Shown here one piece after another: positions 29,110-48,206 of a stretch of 64,000 nucleotides of DNA. The position numbers and the translations under genes were made by a program. The stretch comes from Rhizobacter sp. Root1221. Its GTDB lineage: Bacteria > Pseudomonadota > Gammaproteobacteria > Burkholderiales > Burkholderiaceae_C. The notes beneath the pieces were generated by a model that saw only the letters and a program-made list of their open reading frames with translations, was not told the origin of the DNA and searched no databases. The stretch is from positions 1,206 to 65,205 of the forward strand of contig NZ_LMDI01000045.1 in the NCBI RefSeq assembly GCF_001425785.1. The letters run 5' to 3'. Position 1 is the first letter of the stretch. Each line of letters starts with the position of its first letter.

Positions 29110-29182
29110 GTCAACGAGCGATGGCTCCAGCAGTCAGGCGAGGCTTCCGCCAGGCAACACCCTGCGACACGAACCAACAAAA

Positions 29183-29212
29183 AAGCCCCGCTCCTCATAG
29201 GCAGCGGGGCTT
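29183..29212 (-). terminator. intrinsic terminator at the chromosome/prophage border
   Basis: Ten-base-pair stem AAGCCCCGCT (29183-29192) / AGCGGGGCTT (29203-29212) with a 10-nt loop. On the minus strand it is followed by TTTTTT, so it blocks leftward transcription coming out of the prophage end. It may also end the small gene to its left. Confidence 0.75.
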
Positions 29213-29633
29213 CGGATCAGATTCCGGGCAACGCCCGGAAACACGATCACATGTGGTCGATCATGACCTACCTCTTCCTATGACCACTACCTCATGACTA
29301 ATGCTTGTGGCCCCATCTGTGGCCCCATAACGCTGCTGTTCATTCGCACAGCCCCTGATCGAATTTGTACAGGCGTGGTTCCCGGGACGGGTACCCGATT
29401 GTGAGCATTTACGCAGCCCTCCGGCCATCGCGCGGAATCCACGCAGAGAAGGTTGTGAGACCTCTCCCTCACTTTCGCTACTTGGTCGCGCGCATGGCGT
29501 TAGGTGGCTGCTCGTCTTGGGCGTGGCTCAGGGCGCGACCGGTAGCCGCGCCCTGGCACCAACAAAGTAAGCGCCACCCGCACACCAGCTGCAATGAAAT
29601 CGACGGTATTGCGGTGCAACGCCAATTAGTAGG
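29213..29633. other. prophage left border region, no clear gene
   Basis: About 420 bp without a convincing gene between the terminator and the ATPase gene. It holds an 11-bp direct repeat TGTGGCCCCAT (29306-29316 and 29318-29328) and a hairpin CAGGGCGCG / CGCGCCCTG (29529-29555, loop 9 nt). The composition changes from GC-rich to AT-richer across this stretch. The phage attachment junction should lie here because phage genes begin immediately to the right, but the core cannot be defined without the other end. Confidence 0.45.
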
Positions 29634-31940
29634 TCAAGCACCCGTGGCAACTTGGACCATCTCGTCATAGTGCTTCTTATCAACCTCTTCCATCCACTGA
29701 AAGATGCTGCCCACCACACTGTGACTTTCTCCCGCCAGATTCTCAGCAGACTCTTCAGTAATTTCAATTACGTCGCTGTGAGAATACTTGTTGATGAAAC
29801 GATAAATTTTCTCTTTCAACTCAGGTGTCGTGATGACACATCCTTTCAAACCCACGTCCATAAGTTGACTTATGTCACTTCTACGCTTGGGAAATTTGAA
29901 AGAGAAAAATGACTCCATAAGCTTTCGCGCGAGATTGGCAGTCAGGAAGGCCTCATCACGATTCAGAGTGGTACGCGTCTTGTACTCGTAGAGCATCTTG
30001 AAGATGTAATGATACTCAGATCCGTAATTTTTTAGCGAATCGTCGGCGTCGACGAGCAGGGAATGTCGGGGCGAACCCGGCGGGGCATCCAGTCGGTAAA
30101 AGAAGCAATTCTCCGGCTTCTTGTCCGCCCTTCGATTCCTGTTCGTTCCGCTGAACCAATCGCGGACCAGTTTGAAGTAAGTGAAATTATGGGTGAGCAC
30201 GAACAACTGCAACGCTTCCGAGCACTGAGTCCTCAAGAATGAGTAGGCGTGAAACAGGTGATTCGAATCAAAGCTTGAAACCGGATCGTCCACAACAACA
30301 ATCGTATCTTTGATGTTGTTTCCATTTTCTTTCAGCTTTGTGATGAAGTAGACGAATGCAATGGCCGTCTTTTCGCCTTCGCTCAAGTTTCCATCATGCT
30401 CGCCCACCCCATTCCTGATGATCTCGTAACCTTTTTTATTCTGGTTAAAGCTAAGGCACAACTCGGAGCGACCGATGAAACGGTGCAAGACATCATTAAA
30501 CTCCTTTGCGCCTACTGTTTCATTTGAAAGAAGCGCCTCTAGGCTCGAAACCTGTTGGTCAAGTTTCTCAATTTCCTTGTACTCATTCTTTGCCTCTAAC
30601 TCAATGTCATTGCATCTCTTCTCACAACCCGAATAATCAAACTCCTGCATCTCGGCAGCTGCAAAGTGAAGCTCTAATGCAGCCTTGTTCTTCGAAGTTT
30701 CCGCCTTAAAGTTCGTAGTCTTATTGTTGTGTCGACCGACAACTTCAATCATGGCCTTCAATACTGCATTGAAGTCAGTCACGTTTTCCTCAGCGACATC
30801 CACGATCTGGATGTCCGTCCTTGCAGGGTCGGTGATCTTTGCCTTGAGAGCCTCGCGCCACCCTTCAATCGGCTGGTTAATTTTCTCCGCAATTGAAGAG
30901 TATTGCTTTTGCAATCGCTCGCAATCGGCGGAGTATTCTTTATAAAAACTTGTTGCAGCCGGCAAGTTATTTACCGGAGCGCCCTGTGTTTCAATCCAGC
31001 TCGCAGCATTTTGCAGCCGAGTTTGAAAGTCAGTGAACTCTCTGCTGAAATGGGCAGCCAGTGCTTCAGCCCGAAGCTGCGTGAACGTTGAACCGCAGAA
31101 CTCGCAAGACCGGGAATCGTGTGTCTTGTGAATTTCCAAACCTGTTTGGACCCAAGCCCGGATATCAGGGTTATCGGCCAATCGCTGAACGGCCTGATTC
31201 ACCGCTGTAGTACCAATAAGATCCCTGATGCGAGCCGCCGCCTTCTTATAGTAATCAGTCTCAATCGCCGTCGAAGTGAACACAAGACTTGGGAGCTGGT
31301 CGGGCTTCGCTGCGTTAGTTAAATCTATGACTTTGGCATCGGAAAGTACGGAGTCAGCATTCAACAGCGCTTCAGCGTTACTCTGAATAAAACCAGACAA
31401 CTTGCGACGATCATAGTTCAAATAGTAACTATCGCTTGTATCAACCGCTTGAAGCCCGAGTTTCATTTTTTTTGCGGCGCCTGTCAGAAACTTATCGAGT
31501 GCTTCGCGTTGTTTCTTGGCATCATCGATCTTATCGCTGTAGGACTTCTTCTTTACAGAAACGTCCAGCTTGACTTTTTCTAGCTTCTGCAGGTCGGCAA
31601 TCTTTTCTTTGGCTATAAGAAGAATGCTTTTAACCGACTTGTCCCAATTAATGTTTTCGTGAATGAAACGCTGATTGAAGACGTGAATCTTCAACGGAGA
31701 CGTGGCAAGAGTGGCTTCCGTAATGGTGGAGCCGTTCTCCAAGGCGATGGAAAACTGTGCTGCGCTGAAGCGAGGAATCAGCGAGCGATGCTCCAAACAA
31801 TAAAACACATTGGACAGCGTCGACTTCCCTGTCCCGTTCCAACCATAGACAAGGTTGTTCTTGCCAAACTTCTGAATCTTCGTCCCATTGAAGTCGGTGA
31901 AGATTCCGAATTGACGAAGACGATTGATGCACGTGATCAT
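29634..31940 (-). CDS. AAA_13-type ABC ATPase with C-terminal HEPN-like motif (RloC/PrrC-like candidate nuclease)
   Basis: A 768-residue protein with a strong start: ATG at 31940 preceded by AAGGAGG. Walker A is GWNGTGKST (33-41), ABC signature LSEGEKTA (519-526), Walker B IVVVDDPVSSFDS (from 547). A CEFC pair (279/282) lies in the coiled-coil insert, where RloC carries its zinc hook. The C-terminus has R672-x3-E676 (ARKLMESFFSFKFP) and R714-x6-H721 (RFINKYSH), the R-x4-6-H pattern of HEPN RNases such as the anticodon nucleases PrrC and RloC. The gene is visibly AT-richer than all neighbours and lies beyond the phage lysis genes, a typical cargo position. Expected role: phage exclusion by tRNA cleavage; this is inference. 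Confidence 0.75.
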   Translation of the reverse strand: MITCINRLRQFGIFTDFNGTKIQKFGKNNLVYGWNGTGKSTLSNVFYCLEHRSLIPRFSAAQFSIALENGSTITEATLATSPLKIHVFNQRFIHENINWDKSVKSILLIAKEKIADLQKLEKVKLDVSVKKKSYSDKIDDAKKQREALDKFLTGAAKKMKLGLQAVDTSDSYYLNYDRRKLSGFIQSNAEALLNADSVLSDAKVIDLTNAAKPDQLPSLVFTSTAIETDYYKKAAARIRDLIGTTAVNQAVQRLADNPDIRAWVQTGLEIHKTHDSRSCEFCGSTFTQLRAEALAAHFSREFTDFQTRLQNAASWIETQGAPVNNLPAATSFYKEYSADCERLQKQYSSIAEKINQPIEGWREALKAKITDPARTDIQIVDVAEENVTDFNAVLKAMIEVVGRHNNKTTNFKAETSKNKAALELHFAAAEMQEFDYSGCEKRCNDIELEAKNEYKEIEKLDQQVSSLEALLSNETVGAKEFNDVLHRFIGRSELCLSFNQNKKGYEIIRNGVGEHDGNLSEGEKTAIAFVYFITKLKENGNNIKDTIVVVDDPVSSFDSNHLFHAYSFLRTQCSEALQLFVLTHNFTYFKLVRDWFSGTNRNRRADKKPENCFFYRLDAPPGSPRHSLLVDADDSLKNYGSEYHYIFKMLYEYKTRTTLNRDEAFLTANLARKLMESFFSFKFPKRRSDISQLMDVGLKGCVITTPELKEKIYRFINKYSHSDVIEITEESAENLAGESHSVVGSIFQWMEEVDKKHYDEMVQVATGA

Positions 31941-32204: not shown

Positions 32205-32438
32205 CTATGGCCTTGTCAGAAGCTCCCGCGTACGGACAACTTCAAACACCCGGTCGTCCAGCGCGACAACGAGATCGCCATCTTCCAGTTGGTGAACGGC
32301 CTTGCTTGTCGGCTCGACTTTGATGCGCTTCGCGGACACGATCTCTTCGAACTGCTGCAGCAAGCGCACTGTGTGTTTGCCGCCATCGCAATCGAAAACA
32401 ACGAACCTCCCAGTCTCGCGCATGACCCTACGGCGCAT
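32205..32438 (-). CDS. hypothetical phage protein, 77 aa
   Basis: Small soluble protein with a beta-rich pattern (RFVVFDCDGGKHTVRLLQQF, LEDGDLVVALDDRVFEVVRT). The ATG at 32438 has AGGGGAG upstream, a better site than that of a second in-frame ATG at 32423. It follows the spanin genes on the same strand. I recognise no family; composition is intermediate between phage core and the AT-rich ATPase gene. Confidence 0.6.
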   Translation of the reverse strand: MRRRVMRETGRFVVFDCDGGKHTVRLLQQFEEIVSAKRIKVEPTSKAVHQLEDGDLVVALDDRVFEVVRTRELLTRP

Positions 32439-32492
32439 CCGTGCTCTCCCCTGATAGATCGGGAAAATACTACCTCGTCCCGATTTCGGACT

Positions 32493-33005
32493 CTACGGCG
32501 TAGTCAGCGCGTCACGCTCTCGCTCGCAGGTTTCGCCGGCAAGCCCGCGGCGTCCAGCAAGGTCAGCCAGGTCTGCACCTCGCGCTTCCATCCGGCTGAG
32601 CACGTCGGCAAGCACCATTCCGGTGTCGAAGGTTGGCGCGCCGCCGCCGGCATCGGTGGAATCTGCGGCTCCGGCACAACGACGGGCGGCGCGGGTGGCA
32701 GCGGCGCGCAGCTGCTCACCAGCGCCGACAGCAGCAGCGTGGTCGGCAGCCAGGTTCTCCCTCTTCGTTCGTTCATCATCGAGTGCCTCTTGTGTAAGCC
32801 GGGCGCGGCGCTCGCCCTCCAGTAGTCGCGCCTTCAGAACGGAAATCGCCGCAGTCACAGCGGCCTCGCGTTGCCGAGCGGTCGTCGAGCGCAGCTCGGA
32901 CAACTCGGTTTTGAGGTTGCCGATCCGCACCTCCTGGGCGGTGACAGTCGCAACAACAATCGCGGCAATGGCCCCGGCCAGCATCAGCCTTGGCGAGATG
33001 ATCAT
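32493..33005 (-). CDS. Rz: Rz-like inner-membrane spanin subunit
   Basis: A 170-residue protein with one N-terminal membrane anchor (MLAGAIAAIVVATVTA, about residues 8-23) followed by a long coiled coil (about 25-100). That is the architecture of i-spanins that, with an outer-membrane lipoprotein partner, disrupt the outer membrane at the end of lysis. The ATG overlaps the endolysin stop (ATGA). A complete lipoprotein gene is nested inside in another frame, which confirms the assignment. Confidence 0.85.
   Translation of the reverse strand: MIISPRLMLAGAIAAIVVATVTAQEVRIGNLKTELSELRSTTARQREAAVTAAISVLKARLLEGERRARLTQEALDDERTKRENLAADHAAAVGAGEQLRAAATRAARRCAGAADSTDAGGGAPTFDTGMVLADVLSRMEARGADLADLAGRRGLAGETCERERDALTTP
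32504..32779 (-). CDS. Rz1: Rz1-like outer-membrane spanin lipoprotein, nested in Rz
   Basis: A 91-residue frame lying entirely within the Rz-like gene, in a different reading frame. It has a lipoprotein signal peptide (TWLPTTLLLSALVSSC) with lipobox LVSSC, and then a proline-rich stretch (APLPPAPPVVVPEPQIPPMP), exactly as in lambda Rz1. After lipidation and export it should pair with Rz across the periplasm. Confidence 0.85.
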   Translation of the reverse strand: MMNERRGRTWLPTTLLLSALVSSCAPLPPAPPVVVPEPQIPPMPAAARQPSTPEWCLPTCSAGWKREVQTWLTLLDAAGLPAKPASESVTR

Positions 33006-33430
33006 GGTGAACCCAGCTCGAAGTGCGGACTGTCGCCCTCGCCTCGCTCACGCGGCTTGCCATCGGCATCCCAGTCGGCACCCCAACGGATCCGCACCGC
33101 CAACTCCGAAGCTGCATCGAACATCGCACGCGCGATCGCGTCGAAGTCTTTCGGGTCCGACCAGTCGACTCCACCGTTGCGGAGCGGCGCCAGGTCAACC
33201 GCGCGCCCGTCGATATGCTTCGATGCCAGGGTCCAGGTGACCACCTTTCCGGGCGCCGTCCTACCCTGCGCGTACAGCTGCGCCTGGCGCGCTGCCGTGC
33301 GGAGTCCCTCGACAACGAAGAGCTGGAACGGGACGCGCTCAGCAGCACGACGAACGACATCTACGAGCAGAGGGCTCACGCCGACCAGGCGCATCTCGCT
33401 GGTCGGATCAAGCCTTGGGGTGGCGGTCAT
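33002..33430 (-). CDS. endolysin, M15-family L-Ala-D-Glu/D,D-peptidase
   Basis: Peptidoglycan-cutting lysis enzyme. The ATG at 33430 gives 142 residues (MTATPRLDPTSEMRLVGVSP). Zinc-peptidase motifs are present: FVVEGLRT, SKHIDGRAVDLAP (His and Asp ligands) and a C-terminal SPHFELG (third His). There is no signal peptide, so it needs a holin for export; two holin-like genes precede it. Its ATG overlaps the stop of a small upstream frame, and its own stop overlaps the Rz start. Confidence 0.92.
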   Translation of the reverse strand: MTATPRLDPTSEMRLVGVSPLLVDVVRRAAERVPFQLFVVEGLRTAARQAQLYAQGRTAPGKVVTWTLASKHIDGRAVDLAPLRNGGVDWSDPKDFDAIARAMFDAASELAVRIRWGADWDADGKPRERGEGDSPHFELGSP

Positions 33431-33525
33431 CGCTGAGCCCCCCGTGCAGGCGTCTGCACGGCGCAGACGCTGATGGAAGCAGACGCCGTGGACAGTGCCA
33501 CGACGCTGCCAAGATGTGATTTCAT
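33427..33525 (-). CDS. small phage peptide, 32 aa
   Basis: Starts at an ATG at 33525 (ribosome site AAAGGTC upstream) and ends in an ATGA overlap with the endolysin start. The 32 residues (MKSHLGSVVALSTASASISV then CAVQTPARGAQR) have a mildly hydrophobic N-terminal half like a weak signal peptide. Coding for a peptide is supported only by the start/stop coupling. It may be a translational coupler for the endolysin. One copy of the dispersed 14-bp palindrome lies inside it (33445-33458). Confidence 0.4.
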   Translation of the reverse strand: MKSHLGSVVALSTASASISVCAVQTPARGAQR

Positions 33526-33548
33526 GAATGACCTTTCGTCGTTGAAGA

Positions 33549-33869
33549 TTAGGGAGGCCCCAGCGGGGCCGCATCTGTGCGGGCGTATTCAGGAAGCCCC
33601 ACTCGCCACTCGCGCGCACCGGAGACGAGGACCGCGAGGGTCCCTACGGCCAGGCCTACCTGCGTGTATCCCGGCCACTCACGGAACAGCAATGGGGCAA
33701 AGCCACTGGCGGTGGCCGCGGCGAACAACAGCGCGAAGTTCAGACGGACGTCCCATCGCGTGGTGGCGCTGCTCATGACTGCGAATCGGCAGACGCAGCA
33801 CCACCCGAGCCCCGAGCACGCTGCGAAGTTCGCCAAGGACAGGAGGTACTGCTGTTCGAGGTAGTTCAT
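33549..33869 (-). CDS. holin-like membrane protein
   Basis: A 106-residue protein with about three predicted membrane helices (residues 8-31, 43-62 and 68-84), short loops and an Arg/Asp-containing C-terminus, as in class I holins. The position directly before the endolysin supports a holin or antiholin role. The ATG overlaps the stop of the next membrane protein gene (ATGA), so the two are made together. Which one forms the lethal hole cannot be decided from sequence. Confidence 0.65.
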   Translation of the reverse strand: MNYLEQQYLLSLANFAACSGLGWCCVCRFAVMSSATTRWDVRLNFALLFAAATASGFAPLLFREWPGYTQVGLAVGTLAVLVSGAREWRVGLPEYARTDAAPLGPP

Positions 33870-34350: not shown

Positions 34351-35208
34351 TCAGGTCAACAGAAACTCCATCGTTCCGGGATCGAACCGTGGAGCCAAAC
34401 CGCCCGTGGACATGGTCTTCGGCGTATCGAACGCCCGCCAGAACAGATAGCCGCCGGATCCGTCGAACACCTGGAAATGGGTGACATTGCCCTGGTTTGC
34501 CGTGGGGACGGGCCACACGATTTCCACGTTGTTCGAGATGAGCCCCGTCGTGCCAGCGTCGCTCGCACCGGTATCACCTGGTTCGACAGTGGAAGACAGC
34601 GTGGTGAAGTCCGGCGCAAACTCCGCGCGCACATAGCTGCCCGAACCGGGCTCGGTGCCTGGCGTCGAGTTCGTCGGCGCGTTGGTCGTGTAGCCGATCT
34701 CCCACGCCGCGGGAGGCGAGTACGGTTGAGCGCGGAACATCCGGTCAATCAGCTTGTTGGAGAAGAAGTTCGACAACCCCCCGGTGATCCCAAGCACAAG
34801 CTGGATCGCCCCCGCTGGCATGGCGAACTCATCGGTGTTGTTGATCACAACAGGAACGGCGATCGGCACCCAGAACCAGCAGTTGCCATCCGTCTCTGCG
34901 TCCATGAAACCAACGTAGGACGCGGTGCCCCACGCAGCACCGGCCGTGCCGAAATCCACCGGGTTGTTGTTCGATGTTGCGTGCGAGCTGCCAGAGCTGG
35001 GCAGCGTGCTGGCCGCGCCTTGAGTGCCGGCGAAGTTGGCCAGCGACGTCACGATCTCCTGCCGTGCATACCCGGCGCCACTCAACTCCGTGATTCCATC
35101 GATGTCGGCTGCCGAGGCCAGGGCCATCCACCAGGACTCGAGGCCTGTGAAGTCGCTTCCGCGGAAATAGTCGGCCAGCTTGTTTCTGCCGAAGTCTGTC
35201 ATTGCCAT
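34351..35208 (-). CDS. phage tail-fibre-like protein with two repeated domains
   Basis: The start MAMTDFGRNKLADYFRGSDF at 35208 opens a 285-residue protein. It appears to hold two related domains: FGRNKLADYFRG ... SYVGFMDAETDG (about 5-120) and NFFSNKLIDRMFRAQPYSPP ... YLFWRAFDTP (about 145-275). Each begins with a helix carrying N-K-L. Such domains occur in tail-fibre and decoration proteins of siphoviruses. It follows the tip protein gene, where side-fibre or receptor-binding proteins are encoded. The gene at 47400-47975 seems to carry one copy of a similar domain. Confidence 0.6.
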   Translation of the reverse strand: MAMTDFGRNKLADYFRGSDFTGLESWWMALASAADIDGITELSGAGYARQEIVTSLANFAGTQGAASTLPSSGSSHATSNNNPVDFGTAGAAWGTASYVGFMDAETDGNCWFWVPIAVPVVINNTDEFAMPAGAIQLVLGITGGLSNFFSNKLIDRMFRAQPYSPPAAWEIGYTTNAPTNSTPGTEPGSGSYVRAEFAPDFTTLSSTVEPGDTGASDAGTTGLISNNVEIVWPVPTANQGNVTHFQVFDGSGGYLFWRAFDTPKTMSTGGLAPRFDPGTMEFLLT

Positions 35209-35218
35209 GGTGCTTGCC

Positions 35219-38020
35219 TTAGCTTCCTGGTGTGGTGTTGTCCGCGTCGCCGCGGTAGTTGCCCGTTGCCTGGACGATGCCAGTCGCAACTTCTCGAATC
35301 TCGAAGATCCACCGACCGATGTAAAACATGGGGACGTTCTCCATCGGGTCCATGTCCGGCAGGAACACGGAGAACGTTCGCGCCTCAGTGATCGGATACC
35401 AAACCCCGGAGTTGGCGGATAGGGAAACGCTCGACTCCGGAGTTGCCCCGACGGTTGCGAACTCGGTTAGTGGCGTCCACCTGATTTCAAAGCGTGCGGC
35501 CTCGGTTGCCTCGACTGGTGGCCTCAGCATCCACTGATTTGCCTGCTGCCAGTAGGTGACAGTTGACCCTTGAATCGCAGGCACAACCAGCTTGATCCAC
35601 AGCGTCCCGTCCGTTCTGAACTGGAATGCCTTTTCATGCAGGCGCGTGAAGAATGCCGGGTACTCGAACTGGCCAGTTAGGCGCGGGATGCTGGCCACCT
35701 GGCCGCCGCCGCCATCGTTCGGATCGTCGACCTCGTCGGACGGATCGACGGGATCTTGCACCTCACCAGGGCCAGGCAAGAGATCGTTGTCCGCCTCGTG
35801 CACCCGGTCGTCGTCGATGACCGCAGAGATCTGGTAGAGCTGCAGGCCATCGTCATTGAGGCCACCGTCGGCGATCGCGCTGATCTTCACCAACTCGTCG
35901 GTGGTGCCGATGACACCGAGGAGAAACTTGGTCCTCTCGCGAGAGCCGTCGTCGGTGAAGATCACCGCATCAGGTGCAGAGAGCAACACGACCTGGTCTG
36001 AGTTCACCCCAGAGGTCACAGGGATGGGGTCCGTGACCGTGCCGTCAGCGCGGACCAGCGAGATGGAAAGCGCGCCTGTGGAAAAATCCGGGGGCTCGGT
36101 CAACGTCATCGTCAGGGTGGCCGGATCCCATTCGGCGACGTCGCCAGTCTGCCCATAGCCCCCAACGTCGGGCATGAACCGAACCGGTGACATGAACGCC
36201 GGCAGCACACCCTCCATCTCAACCACGGCAGAGACGGTACGCGTACGCAAAGCCATCGAAGCCGCTTCGTACAGCCCTTCCCGTCGAGCATGCGTCGGTC
36301 CGGTGATCCCAGGCAGTCGGATACGTGCAGGCGTCTGCACACTCTCCGCGCCGGGGGCCGGGCATTCGACCGGCATCCACTCCCACGCTCTGTAGTCGAA
36401 GTACTCGACGATCACGCCGTCGGGCTCGCGCCCGGTGGGGTGCTGCTCGTGCAACTTCATCCCGGTGGCGTTGCGGTGGGTGAATGCTGTCGTGGGCAGG
36501 GCCTCGTACTGATCGCGCGCCAGCGTGAGGACACCGGCACGCCGGAAGGCGCGGCACCTCATGGTGCGGGCCACGAGTTGGAGGGCTGACCAGCCGTCGG
36601 TTGCCGCGTCCATGACGTAGTCGAATCGATCCTGCCGCTCGTCGGCAATGGCTGCATACGCAGCGATCGTGTCCAGGTCCACACGTTCATCGGGCAGCCC
36701 GAGCCCCCAGATCGGCGACGTTGCCAGTTCGGCGAACCACCACGCCGGATTGCGCGTCTCCACCTCCTCCGACCAACCATCTGCCTCGGACCACGTGCGC
36801 GTCATCGCCTTGACGATCAGGGACAGTCGGCCCTGGCTGATGTTCGACAGCTGCTCACTCGACCGCATCACCAGCTCGTAGTGCGCCACGTTCGGATTCA
36901 GCGGCGCCGCACCGTCGACGAACGCTCTCATGCTGGCGAACACCAGGTCGTTGCGAACACGCAAGTTCTCATCGCGCACGTCGGTTCGAACAATGCGCAC
37001 CTCGGGCCGAATCGCGGCGTCCATCGTGATGGCGAACGTCCAACGTCGAGCCTTGCTCGTCGCGCCCTCCTTCGTGATCGTGTGGTACACGCTCCAAGGC
37101 GTGACCGCCACGCCGAACTCGTCGAGCTGACGCATCTCGACGCGCCATTGAACCGTGTGGTTGCCCAGTTCGCCCTCGTCGTTCGCTCGCCCGATGCCGG
37201 TCGGCATCAGGATGTCGTACTCCACACGCTTCGTGACCTTCCTCGGACCGCAGGCCGCGAATCCACCCACGTACAGCCCAGTCAAAAGGGCCTGCCCTGC
37301 GACCTCGGGTACCGTGATCACGTACGGGTTGACCGCCGTGGGCGCCACCCCGGGCGGAAGGTACCGGGCCGTGAGCACATCCTGGAAGTGCGAAACGGGC
37401 GTGTCGTCTATCAGAGCACGCTCAACAGCGTGGTCGCCAACGCCGACAGCGTACAACGCGTAGAACATCTGCTCGCCACCGATCTCGGTGTCATCGTCAC
37501 CGATCCCGTAGGCCGTATATGCGGCGTACGGCATGGCCGCGTAGTTCGGGAACAGCTGATGTCGGCCCATGACCTTTGTGATCGGATCGAAGGGCCTTGC
37601 CTGGTTGCCCGACAGGCCGGTGTTGTAGACCTGTGAGGACTTTTGCTCAACCACCCGCGGAGGCTCGATGGGAATGAGCACGTTGATCGCCAGGCTGCCG
37701 GCAATCGCGATAGCCGCACCCGCCGGACCGCCGACGTACGCGGCCACGATGGTGACCACCACCTGCAGCACGGTGCGCAGGGCGGCCTTGTCCTGCGGCA
37801 TCTCGTGCCACTCCAGGACGTCGCCATCGAAGAGAGGTCTCACGTAGTCGCTGGGCAGGAGCCAATCCCCATTCAGCCGCGGCACCAGCACGCCAAAGGC
37901 CTCCGGGCGGGTGTCGAGCAACATCGTGCCTGGCACCACCCGGCGCATTTCATCCGAGCGAAGGACATGCACAGGCGATGTCGAATGGCCAACGACAGCA
38001 GTCACAGGGAACGTCTCCAA
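35219..38020 (-). CDS. tail tip protein, lambda J-like (TipJ family)
   Basis: A 933-residue central tail tip/host-specificity protein. Recognisable are the N-terminal region with a hydrophobic stretch (VVVTIVAAYVGGPAGAAIAI, about 87-106) and IPIEPPRVVEQKSSQVYNTG. These are followed by a phage-tail fold with SHFQDVLTARYLPPG and NPAWWFAELATSPIWGLGLP, motifs of lambda J-type proteins. The C-terminal third varies in the family and contacts the receptor. The start overlaps the end of the NlpC/P60 gene by 19 bp. Confidence 0.88.
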   Translation of the reverse strand: METFPVTAVVGHSTSPVHVLRSDEMRRVVPGTMLLDTRPEAFGVLVPRLNGDWLLPSDYVRPLFDGDVLEWHEMPQDKAALRTVLQVVVTIVAAYVGGPAGAAIAIAGSLAINVLIPIEPPRVVEQKSSQVYNTGLSGNQARPFDPITKVMGRHQLFPNYAAMPYAAYTAYGIGDDDTEIGGEQMFYALYAVGVGDHAVERALIDDTPVSHFQDVLTARYLPPGVAPTAVNPYVITVPEVAGQALLTGLYVGGFAACGPRKVTKRVEYDILMPTGIGRANDEGELGNHTVQWRVEMRQLDEFGVAVTPWSVYHTITKEGATSKARRWTFAITMDAAIRPEVRIVRTDVRDENLRVRNDLVFASMRAFVDGAAPLNPNVAHYELVMRSSEQLSNISQGRLSLIVKAMTRTWSEADGWSEEVETRNPAWWFAELATSPIWGLGLPDERVDLDTIAAYAAIADERQDRFDYVMDAATDGWSALQLVARTMRCRAFRRAGVLTLARDQYEALPTTAFTHRNATGMKLHEQHPTGREPDGVIVEYFDYRAWEWMPVECPAPGAESVQTPARIRLPGITGPTHARREGLYEAASMALRTRTVSAVVEMEGVLPAFMSPVRFMPDVGGYGQTGDVAEWDPATLTMTLTEPPDFSTGALSISLVRADGTVTDPIPVTSGVNSDQVVLLSAPDAVIFTDDGSRERTKFLLGVIGTTDELVKISAIADGGLNDDGLQLYQISAVIDDDRVHEADNDLLPGPGEVQDPVDPSDEVDDPNDGGGGQVASIPRLTGQFEYPAFFTRLHEKAFQFRTDGTLWIKLVVPAIQGSTVTYWQQANQWMLRPPVEATEAARFEIRWTPLTEFATVGATPESSVSLSANSGVWYPITEARTFSVFLPDMDPMENVPMFYIGRWIFEIREVATGIVQATGNYRGDADNTTPGS

Positions 38021-38406
38021 AATTCATACCGGTGGTAGCCGTCGCGCGTCGCGTCGGCCAGGGGCTGAGCCACGACGCCGCCGCGGGGCCCTCGGTCGGA
38101 CATGTGGCCGTCGTTGTGCAGCAGCCGCAGTCCCGCGGGCGTGCTGATGATCACGCCCACGTGCCGGCCGAACGGGCCCTGCATCAGCACGATGTCTCCG
38201 TCTTGTGCGGGTGCCGGACCGGGTCGCCAACCGGAGGCTTCAGCCGCGCCTTTGATCGCCCGGACGTTGTCATCAGTAGCCACGGCGACGTCCGGCATGG
38301 CGATGCCGTACCGCTGCGCGAAGACCAGGCGCACAAGCGCCCAGCAGTGGAAATCGGGGGTCCATGCGCGCCCAATTAGGACCGTGGCCCAATGGCGAAC
38401 TGTCAT
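38002..38406 (-). CDS. NlpC/P60-family tail assembly protein (lambda K-like)
   Basis: A 134-residue cysteine peptidase domain. The catalytic Cys is in PDFHCWALVRLVF and the His in GRHVGVIISTPAG. In lambda, K has this domain and takes part in tail-tip assembly; in other phages it may help cut peptidoglycan at injection. The ATG overlaps the stop of the preceding tail gene by 4 bp. Confidence 0.88.
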   Translation of the reverse strand: MTVRHWATVLIGRAWTPDFHCWALVRLVFAQRYGIAMPDVAVATDDNVRAIKGAAEASGWRPGPAPAQDGDIVLMQGPFGRHVGVIISTPAGLRLLHNDGHMSDRGPRGGVVAQPLADATRDGYHRYEFWRRSL

Positions 38407-38954
38407 CGGGCGGTCAAGCCGGGATACTCTTCCGGCTTGTAGGTGAGCCGGGGAACAGCGACGTTGACCGGGTCCCCATAGGAAGCGCGAAGCGTCGCGG
38501 AAGTGCCGTCGATGGTCGACTCCGTGAATGTGAGTCGCAGGACCGGGAGCATGGCAGGCCCACTCAGGTCATCGCTGGCGTACACGCGCTCGATCAGCTC
38601 CCAGGGGATGTTGGTTCCCCTCGCAATTCGCAACGCATCCGACAGCAGCCCCGAGACATTGTCGATCGTGACATTGACGGTCGGAGTGGCCGCGTCGTCG
38701 GACTCCTCGCTGCGCGAGGCCTCGACGTACGAGGCCATGAAGGTGACAACCTCACCGGCATCTCTGGGGGCCGTTGATTCCAGCATGGCCTCCAGCGGTG
38801 CCATGTCGTGAACAATACGCGCCGGCTCCGGCAGCGTGGGATGCCACAGTTCGTACGTCAGCAGCATGGCACGACGCACCGGCGCGTACACGGCCGCCTC
38901 CGCGTAGGCCTCGCTGAACGTGACGCCCTTTCTCGGGGGTAGGTATGTTGGCAT
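38403..38954 (-). CDS. minor tail protein, DUF1833-like
   Basis: A 183-residue protein starting MPTYLPPRKGVTFSEAYAEA. The middle (HPTLPEPARIVHDMAPLEAM, then VVTFMASYVEASRSEESDDA and TPTVNVTIDNVS) matches the phage family usually called DUF1833, found next to NlpC/P60 and J genes. It probably corresponds in function to lambda L, near the tail tip. A TTG two codons upstream is an alternative start. Confidence 0.75.
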   Translation of the reverse strand: MPTYLPPRKGVTFSEAYAEAAVYAPVRRAMLLTYELWHPTLPEPARIVHDMAPLEAMLESTAPRDAGEVVTFMASYVEASRSEESDDAATPTVNVTIDNVSGLLSDALRIARGTNIPWELIERVYASDDLSGPAMLPVLRLTFTESTIDGTSATLRASYGDPVNVAVPRLTYKPEEYPGLTAR

Positions 38955-38986
38955 GCTCAAAAATCTGGCTCGTGTTGGTGAGTTGG

Positions 38987-39616
38987 CTAAAAGCCTGCCG
39001 CGCGCGCCACGGCAGCATCTCTGGTTCTGCGTTTGAATTCATCTGCTCCGGAACGGCGGATGCACCAAGCCGTGCCGCGCGCCTGGGCCGCAACGATGCC
39101 GCTCGCGCGGTGCATGCCATTCATGCGGCGGTGCCAGTGGTAGCCCACACGCGGGACATAGGCCGCGCCCCCCTGGGCCACCTGCCAGTAAAGCGGGTGC
39201 TCGATCCACACATCACCAGACGGGATCAACCGCAGCGCCGACAGTGCAGCGGCGGTCTGCATCAGCGCCAGGTGATGCACCATCAACGGGGAGCCGGCAT
39301 GCACGACGGGATCGTACGGTGCCGGCCTGCTGCGAAGCGGTGCCATGCCAGGCCGAACGGTCAGTTCGTCGGTGTAGGCGAGCGGCCGGCCGGCGGCCAC
39401 GCACTCGTCGAGCACGTCGGCAATGTCGTGCGGCAGGCTGTCGTCACTGTCCAGGAAAAACACGTGCTCCGTCCGCACCCGGGCCAGCGCGCGGCGCCGG
39501 GCCGCATGGATACCGGCCGTGGTCGTGAAGGTCTCGCAGTGGTTCAGGGCCACCACCCCGGCGGGCAGCATCATCGTGACGGGCTCGCGGCTCAGGATCA
39601 GGGCGGTGATGCTCAC
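38987..39616 (-). CDS. glycosyltransferase-like protein in the tail module
   Basis: GTG at 39616 overlaps the upstream stop (GTGA) and gives 209 residues. It looks like a small family 2 glycosyltransferase: VRTEHVFFLDSDDSLPHDIA carries the D-x-D nucleotide-sugar motif (DSD), followed by RPLAYTDELTVRPG and a WHRRMNGMH segment. There is no membrane helix. Glycosyltransferases are unusual between minor tail genes; it might modify a virion protein or the host surface. Family assignment rests on the DxD region and overall pattern. Confidence 0.6.
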   Translation of the reverse strand: MSITALILSREPVTMMLPAGVVALNHCETFTTTAGIHAARRRALARVRTEHVFFLDSDDSLPHDIADVLDECVAAGRPLAYTDELTVRPGMAPLRSRPAPYDPVVHAGSPLMVHHLALMQTAAALSALRLIPSGDVWIEHPLYWQVAQGGAAYVPRVGYHWHRRMNGMHRASGIVAAQARGTAWCIRRSGADEFKRRTRDAAVARAAGF

Positions 39617-40458
39617 GATGCCACCCACAACCATTCAATGTTCGCGTACCCGTTCCACTCTCCTTCGAAATACGTCGGGATGCACGTTGCCTGCAGGAGA
39701 CCAGGGCACGCGACACCGCCCACGGTGGCGGAGACCTTGGCTACACCGCCAGAAATCGCGGTTATGAAGTTGAACTCCGGGTCTCGATGAAGGAACCATT
39801 CCAGATCAAACATCCCGAGAAACCCGGGGTCCGTTCGGTTGCCAACCTCCGGCGGGTCGTCGGCCTCGATGATCGGCACCCAACTGACCAGGGTGAACTC
39901 CACGTCGGCCAGCGCGCCAGCTCCGCCTACGATGCCGCCGCACAGCGCGTTGCCGCCGTTGTTCTCATCCGGTAGCGTGCCGGAGTTGGACTGCGCTGGC
40001 GTGGCCACATCCATTTCTTGCACCGGATCGCACCAGCCCATGGCAAAGTCGCCGCCACCTCCGCCGGTCACCTCCGGCGTGCCCAGGCCGCGCACCTCCA
40101 ACACCGCAGTGACGTTCCAGCCGACCCCGGGCAGAAACTCGGACCAAGTCGGCGTACCCACAAACCGGCGGAACCGATATGCGCCCTCGGGAACGCCTTG
40201 CGGCAAAGGCCAGTGGGCTCCGAACCAGCACCCGCCAAAGACCAGCGTGTCTCGCCACCAGGATCGGAACACCTCGGCCTGCGCAAAGGTGAACAGGAAT
40301 GCGGCCTGCTCGCGCTGCAAGAGATCTCGTTGCAGAACGCGAGACTTCAGCGGTCCGGCGGTCCCGCCCTCAGGAGAAAGAAGCCGGCGCTCCTTCGACT
40401 GGACCTCCGACATGCGTGGGCACGGCAAACCGGATGGGTAGATCAACGAATCGGCCAT
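39613..40458 (-). CDS. putative minor tail protein, 281 aa
   Basis: The ATG at 40458 (MADSLIYPSGLPCPRMSEVQ) overlaps the previous stop by one base (TGATG). The first 100 residues (SPEGGTAGPLKSRVLQRDLL, FTFAQAEVFRSWWRDTLVFG, GAHWPLPQGVPEG) are typical of a tail protein found after tape measure genes in Burkholderiales siphophages. The C-terminal half, Gly-rich and beta-like, is variable. Exact role unknown; by position it links tail tube and tip. Confidence 0.65.
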   Translation of the reverse strand: MADSLIYPSGLPCPRMSEVQSKERRLLSPEGGTAGPLKSRVLQRDLLQREQAAFLFTFAQAEVFRSWWRDTLVFGGCWFGAHWPLPQGVPEGAYRFRRFVGTPTWSEFLPGVGWNVTAVLEVRGLGTPEVTGGGGGDFAMGWCDPVQEMDVATPAQSNSGTLPDENNGGNALCGGIVGGAGALADVEFTLVSWVPIIEADDPPEVGNRTDPGFLGMFDLEWFLHRDPEFNFITAISGGVAKVSATVGGVACPGLLQATCIPTYFEGEWNGYANIEWLWVAS

Positions 40459-41009
40459 CAGGTTGCCTCGATGGTGATGCGGCCGGCGAACCGCCGATCG
40501 TGCTGAACCGGCACGGACCCGGACGCAGCCACGCTGACCCGCCCAGAGAAGGGCCGCCCGACCGATGGCATAGCGGTCCCGGTAGCCGGAATCGACACAC
40601 GGCCGCCGAAACTGCTCCGACCGGGCCCGTCCAGGCTGGGCTCGCCCGTCAGCAGCAAACGCCCATTGAGCCGAAATCGCCCACGTGCGAGGGCCGACGT
40701 GGTGTAGGGCTCGAACCACATGGCCTCCCACCACATCGGCGCACCGCCCTCGGTCATGACGAACGCGGAGAATGGCCGCGAACCCGCGGCCGCGTCCTGC
40801 TCGAACCAATCGTGCAGCGCCTTCATCTCGTCCCCCTCAAGCAGCAGGGACACCGACTGAACGCGAGGTGCGATGGTGAACTTGCGACGCTTGCGGCTGT
40901 GACCCGTTGTGGGCGTCGAGTTGCCGAATACCTCGCGCACTTCGATCGCATGGCCGGACGCGAGAAAGTACGGCAGTCCGCCGGGCAGCTTCAGATCTGG
41001 AAGGGGCAC
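40458..41009 (-). CDS. putative minor tail protein, 183 aa (lambda M-like position)
   Basis: I chose the GTG at 41009 because GGAGGGG lies 5-6 bp upstream and it follows the tape measure stop directly; the protein then starts VPLPDLKLPGGLPYF. Residues 45-110 (RKRRKFTIAPRVQSVSLLLE, MKALHDWFEQDAAAGSRPFS) look like a small phage-tail domain that binds the tape measure end. The C-terminal 60 residues form three short repeats (GRVSIPATGTAM, GRVSVAASGSVPV, GRITIEAT). Confidence 0.65.
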   Translation of the reverse strand: MPLPDLKLPGGLPYFLASGHAIEVREVFGNSTPTTGHSRKRRKFTIAPRVQSVSLLLEGDEMKALHDWFEQDAAAGSRPFSAFVMTEGGAPMWWEAMWFEPYTTSALARGRFRLNGRLLLTGEPSLDGPGRSSFGGRVSIPATGTAMPSVGRPFSGRVSVAASGSVPVQHDRRFAGRITIEAT

Positions 41010-41010
41010 C

Positions 41011-43152
41011 TCAGCCCCTCCGCTCGAGTTGACGGCTGAGCCCAAACGTCCGGCGCTGCGCCTGAGAGATGGGGCCACCGGCCGCAAGGTCGGACGTCAT
41101 CTCCTCGCGCATCATGCCGCGCACGATGACCCGGAGGTTGCCGTCTGAACCCTTGCGTGTCTGGACATCCTGGCCGTGGTTCTCGACCGTGACGCTGCCC
41201 CCCCCTCCGCCGCCATTGGCCGGGTTGTACTTCGCTGGCACAACCGCCTCGCCCTTGTGCAGGGACGCCACAAAGCCGTCGTGCGGCACGAAGTTGGTTC
41301 CCGTAGCCAGCTCGGGCAGGAATTGCGTGCCCTCGCTGTAGCTGCCGTTCTGGTACGTGTCGCCCGAGTTGTATCCACCTCCGAAGGCCCCGCCGATCAG
41401 CTTCGCGAAGCCGTTCACCAGCGCGTCGGTGTTGCCGCCCCCCTTGCCTGTGAGAGAACCGATCAGGTCGGCGGCCAATGCCTGAGCGACCATGTTCTGG
41501 AGCAGGCTGACCCACCGTTTGCCGATGTCGTCGAAGTTTCCACCCAGCATCTCGCTCAGTTCGGCACCGAGCGTCTGCTGAATGCTGCGCTCGGCCTCTT
41601 TCGCGGCTTCAGTCGCCTGCTTGAACGCCTCCGAACCCTTCTCCGCAGCACCGTTCATCCGGTCGACAGCCTGCTGCCCTGCCCGACCGTACAAGTCGAG
41701 CGAGATGCGCCCGGCAGCGAACAGTTCGTCGAGCCGTTCGATGCGCGCGATGTACTCTTCCTGAGGTGTCCGCGTCTCGCTGTACATCGAAGCGACTTCA
41801 TCCGCGAGCTGCTTTTGGACGGAGGCCAGCGCCTTCGTCGTCTCCAGCTCCGACTTCTTCTGGGCCGCAGCTGCCTTGTCCGCATCGAGCCGTGCAGCGG
41901 CCGCGAACGCCGCGCCTGCTTGGGCTGCATCGTCGAATCGGCGGCCAGCTGCGATGTCCGCGGCAACACGTTCCACCTCGGACAGATGCTCGGTCTTCTC
42001 GATCCTCTTTCGCAGGTTGTCGATGTAGGTCTCGGCCTCCTGATGGGCGCGTGCTGCGGCAGCGGTCCCCGCAGCGGATGCTCGCGCCGCTTCTGCAGCC
42101 GCCTTCTTCTCGGCCTCTTCGCGCTTCTTCGCCGCCTCGACCTGACCGGCAAGGTCCGGAAGCTTCTCCTGCGGCGCGGCCACAGCTGGGCCGGTGCCGT
42201 AGATGCCTTTGACCTCGTCGCTCGCCTTCGCCGCATTGCGCGAGAGCACCTCGACGTCCTTCGAGAGGCGAGCAATGCGGGATTGCTGTTCGGAGGTGGG
42301 ACTGTCCACCTCGCGCAGCTTGATCAGTTCATCAGTGACCTTCGACAGGGACGCGGACAAAGCGCGCGCCCGCGCTTGAGCGGCATCGCCTCCGAAGCTG
42401 CCGGCTTCGATGTCGCCGCGGAAGTACTCGAACGCTTGGTTGAGCGCCGGGATCACTTCTGAGGTCAGCGCCCGGGCAAAGTTGGTGGCGTTCGCTTGGA
42501 GGTTGGCCAACTGCTTGTTGTACTTCTCTGCCTCGGCTGCCTGGTCGGACGTAGCCGTGGCCACCAACTCGCCCTTGTCGGCCACGTCCTGCAAGAACGG
42601 AGCAAGCTCCTTCATCGACTTGCCGAACAGCGCGCTGACCACGGCTGCCTTGTTGGCGTCCGTCTCGAAGCCGTTGAGCGCCACAGCGATCTGCACCAGG
42701 GCCTCGGCCGGGTCGAGCTTCTTCAGCGCCTCGACGTCCAGTCCGATCTCGCGGATGGCGATCCCCGCCGCGTCGTTCTTTCCAGCGTCCTGCAGTGCCT
42801 TGTTGAGTTTCACCAGCGAGGTTTCAACGGTCTCGAACGTTCCGCCAGCGCGCCGCGAGATGTCGTCAAGGGCGCTGATGTTCTCGACACTGGAGCCGGT
42901 CGCGTCGCGCAGATCGTTGAACGCGTCGAGGCCATCGATCGCCGCGCTGAACATGTTCGGCAGCGCCTGTGCCAGCTCGAGGGCGGCACCGGCCAGGCCG
43001 ACACCCACAGCGGTTCCAATTGCCACAGCACGCGTGGTCATCTGCTGCTCGAAACGCCGAGCCTCCAGCTCGGCCTTCGTGAGCCCGTTCGAGAACTCCG
43101 CCGCATCGAGCGACACCCCGACGCTCAGGTTCGCGATCTTGCCGGTTGCCAT
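41011..43152 (-). CDS. tail tape measure protein
   Basis: A 713-residue protein that sets tail length and is threaded through the tube. The N-terminus MATGKIANLSVGVSLDAAEF and LTKAELEARRFEQQMTTRAV is typical. A hydrophobic stretch at about 45-65, GSSVENISALDDISRRAGGT and an Ala/Glu/Lys-rich coiled coil around residues 330-370 follow. The C-terminal part resembles a tape-measure C-terminal domain. At about 0.15 nm per residue the predicted tail is near 107 nm. It begins immediately after the stop of the gpGT frame. Confidence 0.92.
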   Translation of the reverse strand: MATGKIANLSVGVSLDAAEFSNGLTKAELEARRFEQQMTTRAVAIGTAVGVGLAGAALELAQALPNMFSAAIDGLDAFNDLRDATGSSVENISALDDISRRAGGTFETVETSLVKLNKALQDAGKNDAAGIAIREIGLDVEALKKLDPAEALVQIAVALNGFETDANKAAVVSALFGKSMKELAPFLQDVADKGELVATATSDQAAEAEKYNKQLANLQANATNFARALTSEVIPALNQAFEYFRGDIEAGSFGGDAAQARARALSASLSKVTDELIKLREVDSPTSEQQSRIARLSKDVEVLSRNAAKASDEVKGIYGTGPAVAAPQEKLPDLAGQVEAAKKREEAEKKAAAEAARASAAGTAAAARAHQEAETYIDNLRKRIEKTEHLSEVERVAADIAAGRRFDDAAQAGAAFAAAARLDADKAAAAQKKSELETTKALASVQKQLADEVASMYSETRTPQEEYIARIERLDELFAAGRISLDLYGRAGQQAVDRMNGAAEKGSEAFKQATEAAKEAERSIQQTLGAELSEMLGGNFDDIGKRWVSLLQNMVAQALAADLIGSLTGKGGGNTDALVNGFAKLIGGAFGGGYNSGDTYQNGSYSEGTQFLPELATGTNFVPHDGFVASLHKGEAVVPAKYNPANGGGGGGSVTVENHGQDVQTRKGSDGNLRVIVRGMMREEMTSDLAAGGPISQAQRRTFGLSRQLERRG

Positions 43153-43862
43153 CTACTTCACTCCTTTTTGACGTTCATGCCGCGGTCTGACGCGGTGCAC
43201 CTTCAGCCCTCCGCCGGCGGCGCTGAAGACAGCGGCGGCCACCTCCGCCCCGCCCTTCCCCTCGTCTTCGGGCCACAGGCGCTTGAGACTGAACAGGTCA
43301 GCCTGGTCGAACTCGAAATCCTTGTTTCCGGTCGACCAGGCGATGAACGCCGTGATCTGCGCCAACAGCTTCTCGATGCGGCGGAACGCCAGCGGCTTGC
43401 GCCTTGCCACCCACGCCTGCATCTCGCCCTCGGTCATGACCCGTGACAACTCCTCCACCGTCATGCCGAGCTGCTCGGCCAGGTCGAAGAGGAACTCTTG
43501 CCGCGGGTCTAGGCGTTTCCCTCGTCGCCCGCCTTCGGGCCGTTGGCCTTGTTCGCGGCTTCGTAGATCCGTCGAACCACATCGGGCGTGAGGCTGGAGA
43601 GCGTGTGCGCGTCCGCCTCCGAATCGATGTCGAACAGCATCGCCCCCGCCTCGTCGCACAGGACCATCGACAGCGAACGCCCCACATCCAAGCCGTCGTC
43701 CTTGCGCAAGGCATCGAGTCGCTTGCGGTTTTGACTCGCCGTGTAGATGGTCTGTACGGCAACGAAAACCTCACCCAGCCCAGGAATCTCGACCTTGACC
43801 GGCGGCGGATTCGTCGCCGCGGCGACGGCGGCCCGAAGGCTCATGCGATCGAGCGCGCTCAC
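43153..43862 (-). CDS. tail assembly chaperone gpGT, made by -1 frameshift
   Basis: Fusion of the upstream gpG frame with the downstream gpT frame. On the minus strand the slippery heptamer G-GGA-AAC (GGGAAAC, 43521 to 43515) lies four codons before the gpG stop and is phased X-XXY-YYZ. A -1 slip there continues as GKRLDPRQEFLFDLAEQLGM and ends after the ARRKPLAFRRIEKLLAQ region typical of lambda-T-like proteins, giving about 236 residues. The T part has no good start of its own. The fusion recruits the tape measure protein and tube subunits during assembly. Confidence 0.88.
43509..43862 (-). CDS. tail assembly chaperone gpG
   Basis: A 117-residue unshifted product starting at GTG 43862, which overlaps the tube gene stop (GTGA). 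Core: VKVEIPGLGEVFVAVQTIYT and SMVLCDEAGAMLFDIDSEAD, and it ends at a TAG at 43509. In lambda the G:GT ratio set by frameshifting is critical for tail assembly, and the GGGAAAC site near the end supports the same here. ATG at 43844 is an alternative start. Confidence 0.85.
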   Translation of the reverse strand: MSALDRMSLRAAVAAATNPPPVKVEIPGLGEVFVAVQTIYTASQNRKRLDALRKDDGLDVGRSLSMVLCDEAGAMLFDIDSEADAHTLSSLTPDVVRRIYEAANKANGPKAGDEGNA

Positions 43863-44521
43863 GCCACACCGCTTTCGAAAACGTAGATCTCGCCGGTGAG
43901 GCGGATGGTGGCGGAGCCTTGCCACAGGCCGCCGTTTCCGCCGGTCAGGTTCTGCGACTGCACCGATCCCAGGGCAACGACGCGCCCGCCGTCCTTTGGG
44001 AACAGCAGATCGAAGGCCAGGATTTCACCCGATCGCTTGGCCGCCCGCATTGCCACCTGAATCGGAGAGTTCAACGCCGCCAGGTAGTCGAGCTGCATGG
44101 TGCCCGGATCCGACAACCCAATCTCGAACTCCTTGGCCTTCGAACAGATCGTCGTGGCTTCGTATTCGTCCGCAGCACCGTCCTGCTGGTTGAAGTTCTG
44201 CAGCTCGCAGAACGGGGACATGTCGGCAGGCGCGAGGGTGCCGCCCGAGATGTACGCCGTGTAGTCGGTCGAGTCCACGCCGATCAGGTCCAGGTCGTTC
44301 GCGGTGGCCCCCTCCTGCACGACGTACAGGTTGCCGTTCAGCTCGGTCATGCCGACGACGCCGGCGACCTTGACGGGAGTCCCGTCCTCGAGGCCGTGTG
44401 CCGCACTGGTGACGTTGGCCGGGTCATCGTTGGTGACGGCGGTGATCGCCTTCGTGGCCAGGAATCCGATCTGCACCCGGAACTGCGAGCCCGGGAACTT
44501 GTAGCGCTTTGCGGAGGGCAT
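43859..44521 (-). CDS. major tail tube protein with an inserted FCCH-like domain
   Basis: A 220-residue tube subunit. Residues 1-25 and about 95-220 (FCELQNFNQQDGAADEYEAT, GTMQLDYLAALNSPIQVAMR, SATIRLTGEIYVFESGVA) form the tube fold. About residues 26-92 (ITAVTNDDPANVTSAAHGLE, TELNGNLYVVQ, DSTDYTAYISGGTL) match the beta-barrel insert often labelled ubiquitin-activating E1 FCCH-like in phage virion proteins, probably displayed on the tail surface. Position before gpG/gpGT and the tape measure supports the call. Confidence 0.85.
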   Translation of the reverse strand: MPSAKRYKFPGSQFRVQIGFLATKAITAVTNDDPANVTSAAHGLEDGTPVKVAGVVGMTELNGNLYVVQEGATANDLDLIGVDSTDYTAYISGGTLAPADMSPFCELQNFNQQDGAADEYEATTICSKAKEFEIGLSDPGTMQLDYLAALNSPIQVAMRAAKRSGEILAFDLLFPKDGGRVVALGSVQSQNLTGGNGGLWQGSATIRLTGEIYVFESGVA

Positions 44522-44550
44522 GTTGATCGCCTTTCGTTTGGATAAAAAAA

Positions 44551-44569
44551 GGGCCGCACTTGGCGGCCC
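44551..44569 (-). terminator. strong intrinsic terminator between head and tail genes
   Basis: Stem GGGCCGC (44551-44557) / GCGGCCC (44563-44569) with a 5-nt loop; on the minus strand it is followed by seven T. It lies after the tail-completion gene and before the tube gene, where it would cut the late transcript unless RNA polymerase is antiterminated. It may also set the ratio of upstream to downstream messages. Confidence 0.8.
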
Positions 44570-44588
44570 CGATGGAGAATTGGTTCGC

Positions 44589-44978
44589 TCAGACGCTGGA
44601 GAGGTAGACGACGTAGTCGAGGGAGACCCGAGCGGTCTTGGTCGCGGCCTCGTCGAACTCGTTCTCGGCCGCCCAGATGAACTCCGGCCCGAGGGCGCGC
44701 ATCGCGGTCAGCACCTGGGAGCGCAGTTGCGACAACTCGATCCCTCCCTTCGCAGCATCTGTGACCACGTCCAGCTGCAGGCGGTAGTCCGCCGTGTCCT
44801 CCCCGCCATCACCGCAGATGGATTCCGACGGCACCGCGTCGATGACGGTGATGCGGATGGCTGGCCAAGTGGGAGCGGCAGCGTTGATTGGCTGGGGGAA
44901 CAGCCTGGCGTAGACGCGACCACCCACAAGCGGGGTCAGTGCCGCAACGACGGCGGCCAGCATGTCTTGGCGGTTCAC
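44589..44978 (-). CDS. tail completion protein (DUF3168-like)
   Basis: A 129-residue protein from a GTG at 44978 that overlaps the previous stop (GTGA). VYARLFPQPINAAAPTWPAI and ADYRLQLDVVTDAAKGGIEL are typical of the small protein that caps the tail tube toward the head in HK97-like phages. Only this C-terminal part of a longer open frame is conserved, which supports the internal start. Confidence 0.75.
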   Translation of the reverse strand: MNRQDMLAAVVAALTPLVGGRVYARLFPQPINAAAPTWPAIRITVIDAVPSESICGDGGEDTADYRLQLDVVTDAAKGGIELSQLRSQVLTAMRALGPEFIWAAENEFDEAATKTARVSLDYVVYLSSV

Positions 44979-45433: not shown

Positions 45434-45435
45434 GC

Positions 45436-45765: not shown

Positions 45766-45768
45766 TGT

Positions 45769-47352: not shown

Positions 47353-47399
47353 GCGCGCGCCTCAGTGGCGCCCCACCCGGACGGGCGGGGCTGTACGGA

Positions 47400-48154: not shown

Positions 48155-48206
48155 GATCGTCCTTCCGAGAAGTGCCCTGTCGGGCGGGTAATACAAGGTG
48201 CTTGCT

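Follow-up and report, generated by a model that had tools for sequence, protein, structure and literature searches.

Results

Gene, reading frame and composition

The window, by which we mean the whole stretch of 64,000 nucleotides from Rhizobacter sp. Root1221 that was analysed, carries on its minus strand an open reading frame at 31979-29634, which encodes 781 aa when counted from the GTG at 31979. Counted from the ATG at 31940, which follows closely on an AAGGAGG, the product has 768 aa. Residues are numbered here from this ATG, and the labels G39 and K40 of the translation P0001 correspond to 38 and 39. The features to which the text refers are the following.

29175..29267, no strand, attL repeat (repeat comparison; partner attR at contig 70897-70989)
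29634..31940, minus strand, rloC-like gene, 768 aa (ORF call, AAA_13 and PADLOC matches)
29637..30050, minus strand, C-terminal all-helical nuclease domain as modelled (predicted), residues 631-768 (AlphaFold2, PrrC alignment)
29778..29801, minus strand, R714-x6-H721, RFINKYSH (R in 23/37 and H in 37/37 proteins)
29913..29927, minus strand, R672-x3-E676 of the predicted catalytic triad (R in 37/37, E in 35/37)
30267..30299, minus strand, Walker B/D-loop VVVDDPVSSFD, residues 548-558 (re-translation, 37-protein alignment)
30372..30386, minus strand, ABC signature LSEGE, residues 519-523 (re-translation, 37-protein alignment)
31095..31106, minus strand, CXXC (C279-E-F-C282) in the coiled-coil insert (re-translation; 37/37 proteins)
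31818..31844, minus strand, Walker A GWNGTGKST, residues 33-41 (re-translation, 37-protein alignment)
32205..33619, minus strand, lysis end adjoining the gene (PHROG/Pfam searches)
32205-32438, minus strand, small ORF of 77 aa in the lysis end, unmatched
32493-33005, minus strand, Rz-like spanin in the lysis end
33002-33619, minus strand, endolysin in the lysis end
34351..59430, minus strand, prophage structural and replication genes (PHROG)

The initial annotation had read three ABC motifs (GWNGTGKST, LSEGEKTA and VVVDDPVSSFD), all of which were confirmed by re-translation; the CEFC pair that it saw in the coiled-coil insert lies at residues 279-282, and its C-terminal R672-x3-E676 and R714-x6-H721 are both there in the 768-aa numbering. 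It had also described the gene as AT-richer than its neighbours, in agreement with G+C contents of 0.471 and 0.483 in the two kilobases of 30001-32000 against 0.60-0.73 in 60 of the 62 other kilobases of the window. The two exceptions are 29001-30000 (0.546), which belongs partly to the rloC-like gene, and 61001-62000 (0.577), a dip in the right half of the prophage where the ORFs tested had no PHROG or Pfam match. Compared with five relatives of 75-83% identity, the gene gave pS values of 0.78-0.82 and pN values of 0.10-0.16. This contrast, together with one family model that runs over residues 11-749, indicates that the ORF is more than a chance one, and by these measures the protein is intact and strongly constrained by purifying selection. 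A promoter and terminator scan returned counts close to those of shuffled sequence.

Prophage and its boundaries

The 93-bp repeat at 29175-29267 is 96% identical to its partner at contig 70897-70989, beyond the window. The 3' end of icd (PF00180, 298 bits) lies partly within the far copy (attR), next to which there is a gene for a tyrosine integrase (PF00589). The ends of the prophage were set from the att repeat, the integrase and icd, which gives it a length of about 40.6 kb. No other prophage gene stands between the rloC-like gene and attL, the distance to the repeat being 366 bp, and the integrase is at the opposite end, so that the earlier placement at the prophage edge, outside the structural genes, can be sharpened to a position inside the prophage. 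At E 0.001, 12 of the 20 prophage proteins tested matched PHROG, and the genes of 34351..59430 include those for head protein, tail J, minor tail, tape measure, head-tail adaptor, major head, portal, terminase and primase/helicase. Towards the integrase end of the prophage, L013:3848-5641 encodes a 598-aa ParB-type protein (PF02195 and PF17762). To the left of the prophage, 21254-28723 holds ordinary host genes, namely a large hybrid histidine kinase and a pair of ABC transporter permease and ATPase. Rfam gave nothing over 28000-64000, and no tRNA gene was found in L013, the only one in the window being at 1610-1702, outside the prophage.

For the empty site, nine icd loci of the same genus (L113-L121) were compared, eight of which reach the icd end. 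In seven of these eight the match to the left flank of the window is confined to 23-36 bp at the att repeat, and the remaining one shows no match; the 110-aa ORF and the ABC ATPase left of attL are absent from the roughly 1.5 kb beyond icd in those loci, and an undisturbed empty site was not seen among L113-L121.

Family assignment and conservation

AAA_13 (PF13166) spans residues 11-749 of P0001 with 650 bits (E 8e-195, Pfam). The top PADLOC family was PDC-S06 (563.8 bits, residues 2-765), an unnamed candidate class, which PMC11811056, in the passage cited, places among the PADLOC candidates whose proteins DefenseFinder names otherwise, the other name not being given there. The PADLOC PrrC model gave 36.5 bits, with its best stretch at 463-751.

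Conservation was read from 37 distinct near-full-length proteins. The family profile matched 62 ORFs, of which 45 passed the coverage limit; the window's own protein was added, and 4 short and 5 duplicate sequences were dropped. The 17 ORFs below the limit were left out, two long ones (L047 and L053) among them. Many of the 37 were retrieved by patterns of conserved ATPase motifs, and the conservation of the ATPase is therefore partly built in; the triad never served as a retrieval pattern for this set. R672, H721, C279 and C282 are invariant (37/37), and position 676 is Glu in 35 proteins and Asp in two. The G and K of Walker A, S520, D551, D552 and the switch histidine H584 are likewise found in 37/37, and G522 in 36/37. 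From residue 651 on, blocks are 81-90% identical in five close relatives, with R672, E676 and H721 retained. L047, L053 and the divergent AAA_13 proteins L050, L052 and L056 have a CXXC and some R-x3-E followed by a His, unaligned patterns that may be due to chance.

The initial annotation had laid its stress on R714 and H721. H721 (37/37), like R672 and E676, corresponds to a residue that published work showed to be required; R714 is not general, being kept in 23 of 37 proteins and replaced by Lys already in a relative of 47% identity. Its expectation that both residues are conserved in close homologues held, since both are kept in 7/7 relatives with at least 53% identity. Two further sets of residues were noted. 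H271 (32/37) and H297 (30/37) flank the CXXC at window 31050-31130, and could complete a one-chain Cys2His2 zinc site in a region where the model is poor (pLDDT <50 at P0001 268-277). A C-terminal D-x2-H at residues 754-757 (window 29670-29681) has each residue in 33/37.

Fifteen PrrC proteins were collected with the PADLOC PrrC model, which matched 16 of 398 genomes, one fragment being dropped. When the family profile was aligned to them by hhalign, a probability of 98.3 and a pairwise E of 2e-14 were obtained over columns 486-742, in a register that puts R-x3-E over R-x3-E and SH over SH; R295, E299, R328 and H335 are each found in 15/15 of the PrrC set. Because it appears in this profile alignment, the kinship of the nuclease end with PrrC is, at the level of sequence, more than motif spotting. 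Searches of solved structures by sequence had no RloC or PrrC among the matches listed (4 and 50), and AriA and Rad50 came first among those listed when the search was made by profile.

Predicted structure

The full-length model (16 sequences) has a pLDDT of 82 and a pTM of 0.48, and falls below pLDDT 50 at P0001 268-277, beside the CXXC. Its long helices, at 112-167, 289-318, 335-371, 385-435 and 437-471, are the features from which the coiled coil was judged. Against solved structures its top matches are the heads of Rad50 and SMC proteins, with E 3.7e-8 at best and a query TM-score of about 0.26. The C-terminal domain, residues 631-768, was modelled separately by AlphaFold2 from 25 sequences and is all helical (pLDDT 85.2, pTM 0.81). 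It had no significant match to HEPN or to any other fold among solved structures, and nothing at E 0.001 in a viral structure library. Ranked by E-value, the first matches are the four-helix bundles Pyk2 PAT and vinculin tail (E 0.42-0.8, TM about 0.3). When the best 50 of 151 matches are ordered by query TM-score instead, HEPN proteins take the first five places (0.41-0.50, E 2.1-4.5): the HEPN toxins 8yuf (0.50), 8xeh (0.48) and 8xdj (0.42 and 0.41), and Csm6' (0.47), which carries a HEPN domain. For the C-terminus, proposed at the outset to be HEPN-like, neither a HEPN fold nor a non-HEPN fold gave a significant match. The HEPN survey of PMC3710099, in the part cited, places RloC and PrrC among HEPN proteins, and the model suggests that the domain fits a divergent HEPN.

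Distribution, mobility and neighbours

A relative was present in 145 of 72,556 plasmid records (89 at 80-90% identity, 111 conjugative) and in one of 50,697 phage records, at 24.5% identity; phage DNA searched with 29100-32500 gave no match. A collection of viral contigs yielded 26 loci, the window's own included, and not all of these count as phages, because the upstream flank of L025 is shared with the bacterial contig L005 (85% over 3.8 kb). Among related genomes, 4 of 148 others have a homologue at E 1e-20, and none of the 10 in the same genus.

The P2 portal gene borders a defence hotspot next to cos. A P2-type portal gene lies 383 bp (L029) and 54 bp (L030) from the relative, and about 3.4 kb from it in L028:5744-9371, where the relative is in two separate ORFs. 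In L027 three ORFs separate the relative from the baseplate and tail fibre genes that precede it, and the element that holds it in L036 also has a portal gene; the single protein tested in L024 had no match. P2-like phages are described in PMC9122126 as carrying a defence hotspot beside cos, and the name RloC has 0 occurrences in that text. Other settings were also observed. Upstream of one plasmid copy are genes for ParB and DUF932 proteins. In L004:10001-13676 the relative is interrupted by a 424-aa ORF, presumably a transposase from its appearance. In the Robbsia plasmid L095 the relative lies between a set of imuA, Y-family polymerase and error-prone polymerase genes and a gene for an SOS response-associated peptidase, a setting that would suit a link to DNA damage.

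A partner gene was sought by comparing, at E 1e-6, the flanks of 14 copies over at most 5 kb, and rejected, as nothing was common to all. Flank sharing was limited to L004/L025, L005/L025 and L028/L029/L030, and the 77-aa ORF at 32205-32438 had no match at E 1e-4 among the rloC loci and none in Pfam. Since no gene accompanies rloC in all loci and the window shares none, rloC looks like a one-gene unit. When 28 prophage proteins were compared with the rloC loci, only four matches were obtained, namely the portal (36%) and terminase (24%) of L036 and a single small protein found in both L033 and L070; the elements of the other relatives had no detectable kinship to the window prophage in the stretches compared. 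The lysis-to-tail DNA found, at E 1e-40, its own genome alone among 299 family genomes (two candidates scored each). L079 has the best viral relative of the endolysin (71%), but over the 14.4 kb compared it matched none of the remaining 27 of the 28 proteins. Thus none of these searches led to a related prophage that has this slot, and no turnover at the slot is demonstrated.

Restriction-modification partner

The genome is a 6.87 Mb draft in 76 contigs. HSDR_N was matched nowhere in it (9 of 14 control genomes have a match), nor was N6_Mtase (13 of 14 control genomes), and no R-M family was found among the neighbouring ORFs tested. By its gene content, as covered by HSDR_N and N6_Mtase in this draft, the genome is without a recognised type I R-M partner.

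Discussion

According to the passages cited from PMC2610378, RloC is recognised by ABC motifs like those of PrrC, by a CXXC within a coiled-coil insert, by a length of 658-897 aa and by Arg-X3-Glu-X36-52-His at the C-terminus, where Ser often precedes the His; it is seldom linked to R-M genes (8/73). In Geobacillus RloC, Ala at any of the three triad residues abolished the in vivo activity (PMC2610378). The activity itself is a cut in the tRNA anticodon with excision of the wobble nucleotide, and tRNA cleavage, the triad requirement and control by zinc and DNA breaks have been reported of other RloC proteins. The window protein has the ABC motifs (Walker A, signature, Walker B/D-loop, switch histidine), a CXXC insert that splits the ATPase, R672-x3-E676-x44-H721 with S720 before the His, and a length of 768 aa within the published range, and its draft genome gave no match to HSDR_N or N6_Mtase; the HEPN motif Rx4-6H is present as R714-x6-H721. 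It therefore resembles the RloC of Geobacillus kaustophilus and Acinetobacter baylyi ADP1, both in an ABC ATPase of Rad50 type that a coiled-coil insert with CXXC divides in two and in triad spacing, SH pair, length range and rarity of R-M linkage (PMC2610378 and PMC3874168, as far as cited), those named proteins being compared by description only. It differs in that the window copy resides in a prophage. A. baylyi has unlinked hsd genes (cited part of PMC3874168), whereas HSDR_N and N6_Mtase are unmatched in the genome of the window.

With PrrC the protein shares the ABC ATPase and the same catalytic residues. However, PrrC proteins have 341-416 aa and no CXXC insert, and a type Ic R-M locus always accompanies their genes (PMC2610378, in the passages cited), none of which applies to the window gene, and membership in PrrC was rejected on these three points. 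Another type, the ABC-HEPN proteins like APECO1_4465, also joins an ABC ATPase to HEPN in prophages; it forms a separate group in the part of PMC3710099 cited, and was set beside the window gene by description only. The length of 768 aa, the CXXC insert and the R-x3-E-x44-SH spacing place the gene with RloC rather than PrrC, and the published definition, the profiles and the PrrC comparison make it a convincing candidate for a prophage-borne RloC. The first call, a candidate of RloC/PrrC type, was right in kind, with RloC now favoured. The novelty is modest, a well-placed new RloC and not a new kind of system, because prophage residence of a small RloC subset was noted in 2013 (PMC3710099, same part).

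The domain make-up, the catalytic residues, the PrrC kinship, the att position and the presence on many mobile elements were directly observed. From these we infer an activity and a benefit, and consider it quite likely that the gene is a stand-alone RloC exclusion gene whose HEPN-type C-terminus cuts tRNA anticodons; it probably shuts out rival phages. RloC would be cargo at the attL end of the icd-integrated prophage, away from the structural genes. The lysogen would make it at a low level, silenced by its own ATPase and zinc insert, until a superinfecting phage brings about broken DNA and the ATPase is switched; the nuclease would then cut tRNA and translation would halt, so that the rival phage fails and the cell or its growth pays. 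PrrC is released upon an attack on its type I R-M partner. A trigger coupled to R-M in this way is not favoured here and would be unlikely, as HSDR_N and N6_Mtase have no match in the 76-contig draft. Our best guess for the trigger is DNA breaks, as in A. baylyi, whose RloC is activated by them with its own R-M genes dispensable (PMC3874168, part cited).

Whether the substrate is indeed the anticodon bears on one alternative, an RloC-family protein with some other RNA target. A substrate is unreadable from sequence, the structural match to HEPN is weak, and HEPN RNases vary, RNase LS and LsoA cutting mRNA (PMC3710099, in the cited part). However, in triad spacing and SH pair the protein agrees with the RloC/PrrC group, and the profile match to PrrC takes in the nuclease end; we regard another target as quite improbable. 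A DNA-repair or SMC-like ATPase devoid of nuclease activity, as the Rad50 and SMC heads among the whole-model matches might suggest, is highly improbable: the C-terminal region with the triad is missing from Rad50 and SbcC (PMC2610378, passages cited), whereas the window protein keeps R672, E676 and H721.

The benefit to the phage is a separate matter, and the enzyme activity given above is compatible with a cargo acquired by chance that guards the bacterium or its mobile elements and has no role in phage competition. The 145 plasmid records, 111 of them conjugative, the similar flanks of L005 and L025, the plasmid copy with its ParB and DUF932 genes and the failure to find a related prophage with the same slot all agree with such a cargo; on the contrary, a place flanked by lysis genes and attL, or beside a P2-type portal gene as in some relatives, is of the sort in which prophages carry exclusion genes, and we think chance cargo somewhat unlikely. 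Prophage carriage may nevertheless be chance, giving no benefit to the phage, since the one phage record is distant and many close relatives are on plasmids.

The stand-alone exclusion gene that we prefer touches on points where published accounts, in the portions cited, differ, namely the trigger of RloC that has no R-M partner and the extent of exclusion. For example, RloC acts against T4 according to PMC3710099 and PMC10999674, is listed as not tested in PMC12322248, and has phage exclusion as a proposal in PMC3874168, whose authors also considered RloC a curb on prophage development (all in the parts cited). If the prophage is induced by DNA damage, its own RloC cargo would then attack translation, and the weapon would have to stay silent during the phage's own induction. 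We put forward, as a speculative and on balance unlikely extension, that the phage carries a self-contained translation killer triggered by DNA breaks and silent in its own induction if damage-induced, a switch between exclusion of rivals and release from a damaged lysogen, and that H271 and H297 with the CXXC would form a one-chain Cys2His2 site and not a two-chain hook of Rad50 type.

A prophage-borne copy makes the curb of RloC on prophage development testable. Furthermore, a delimited prophage in a host with no type I R-M match is a clean natural setting for RloC, in which a single gene can be removed from a single prophage and exclusion, tRNA cutting and induction can be measured together.
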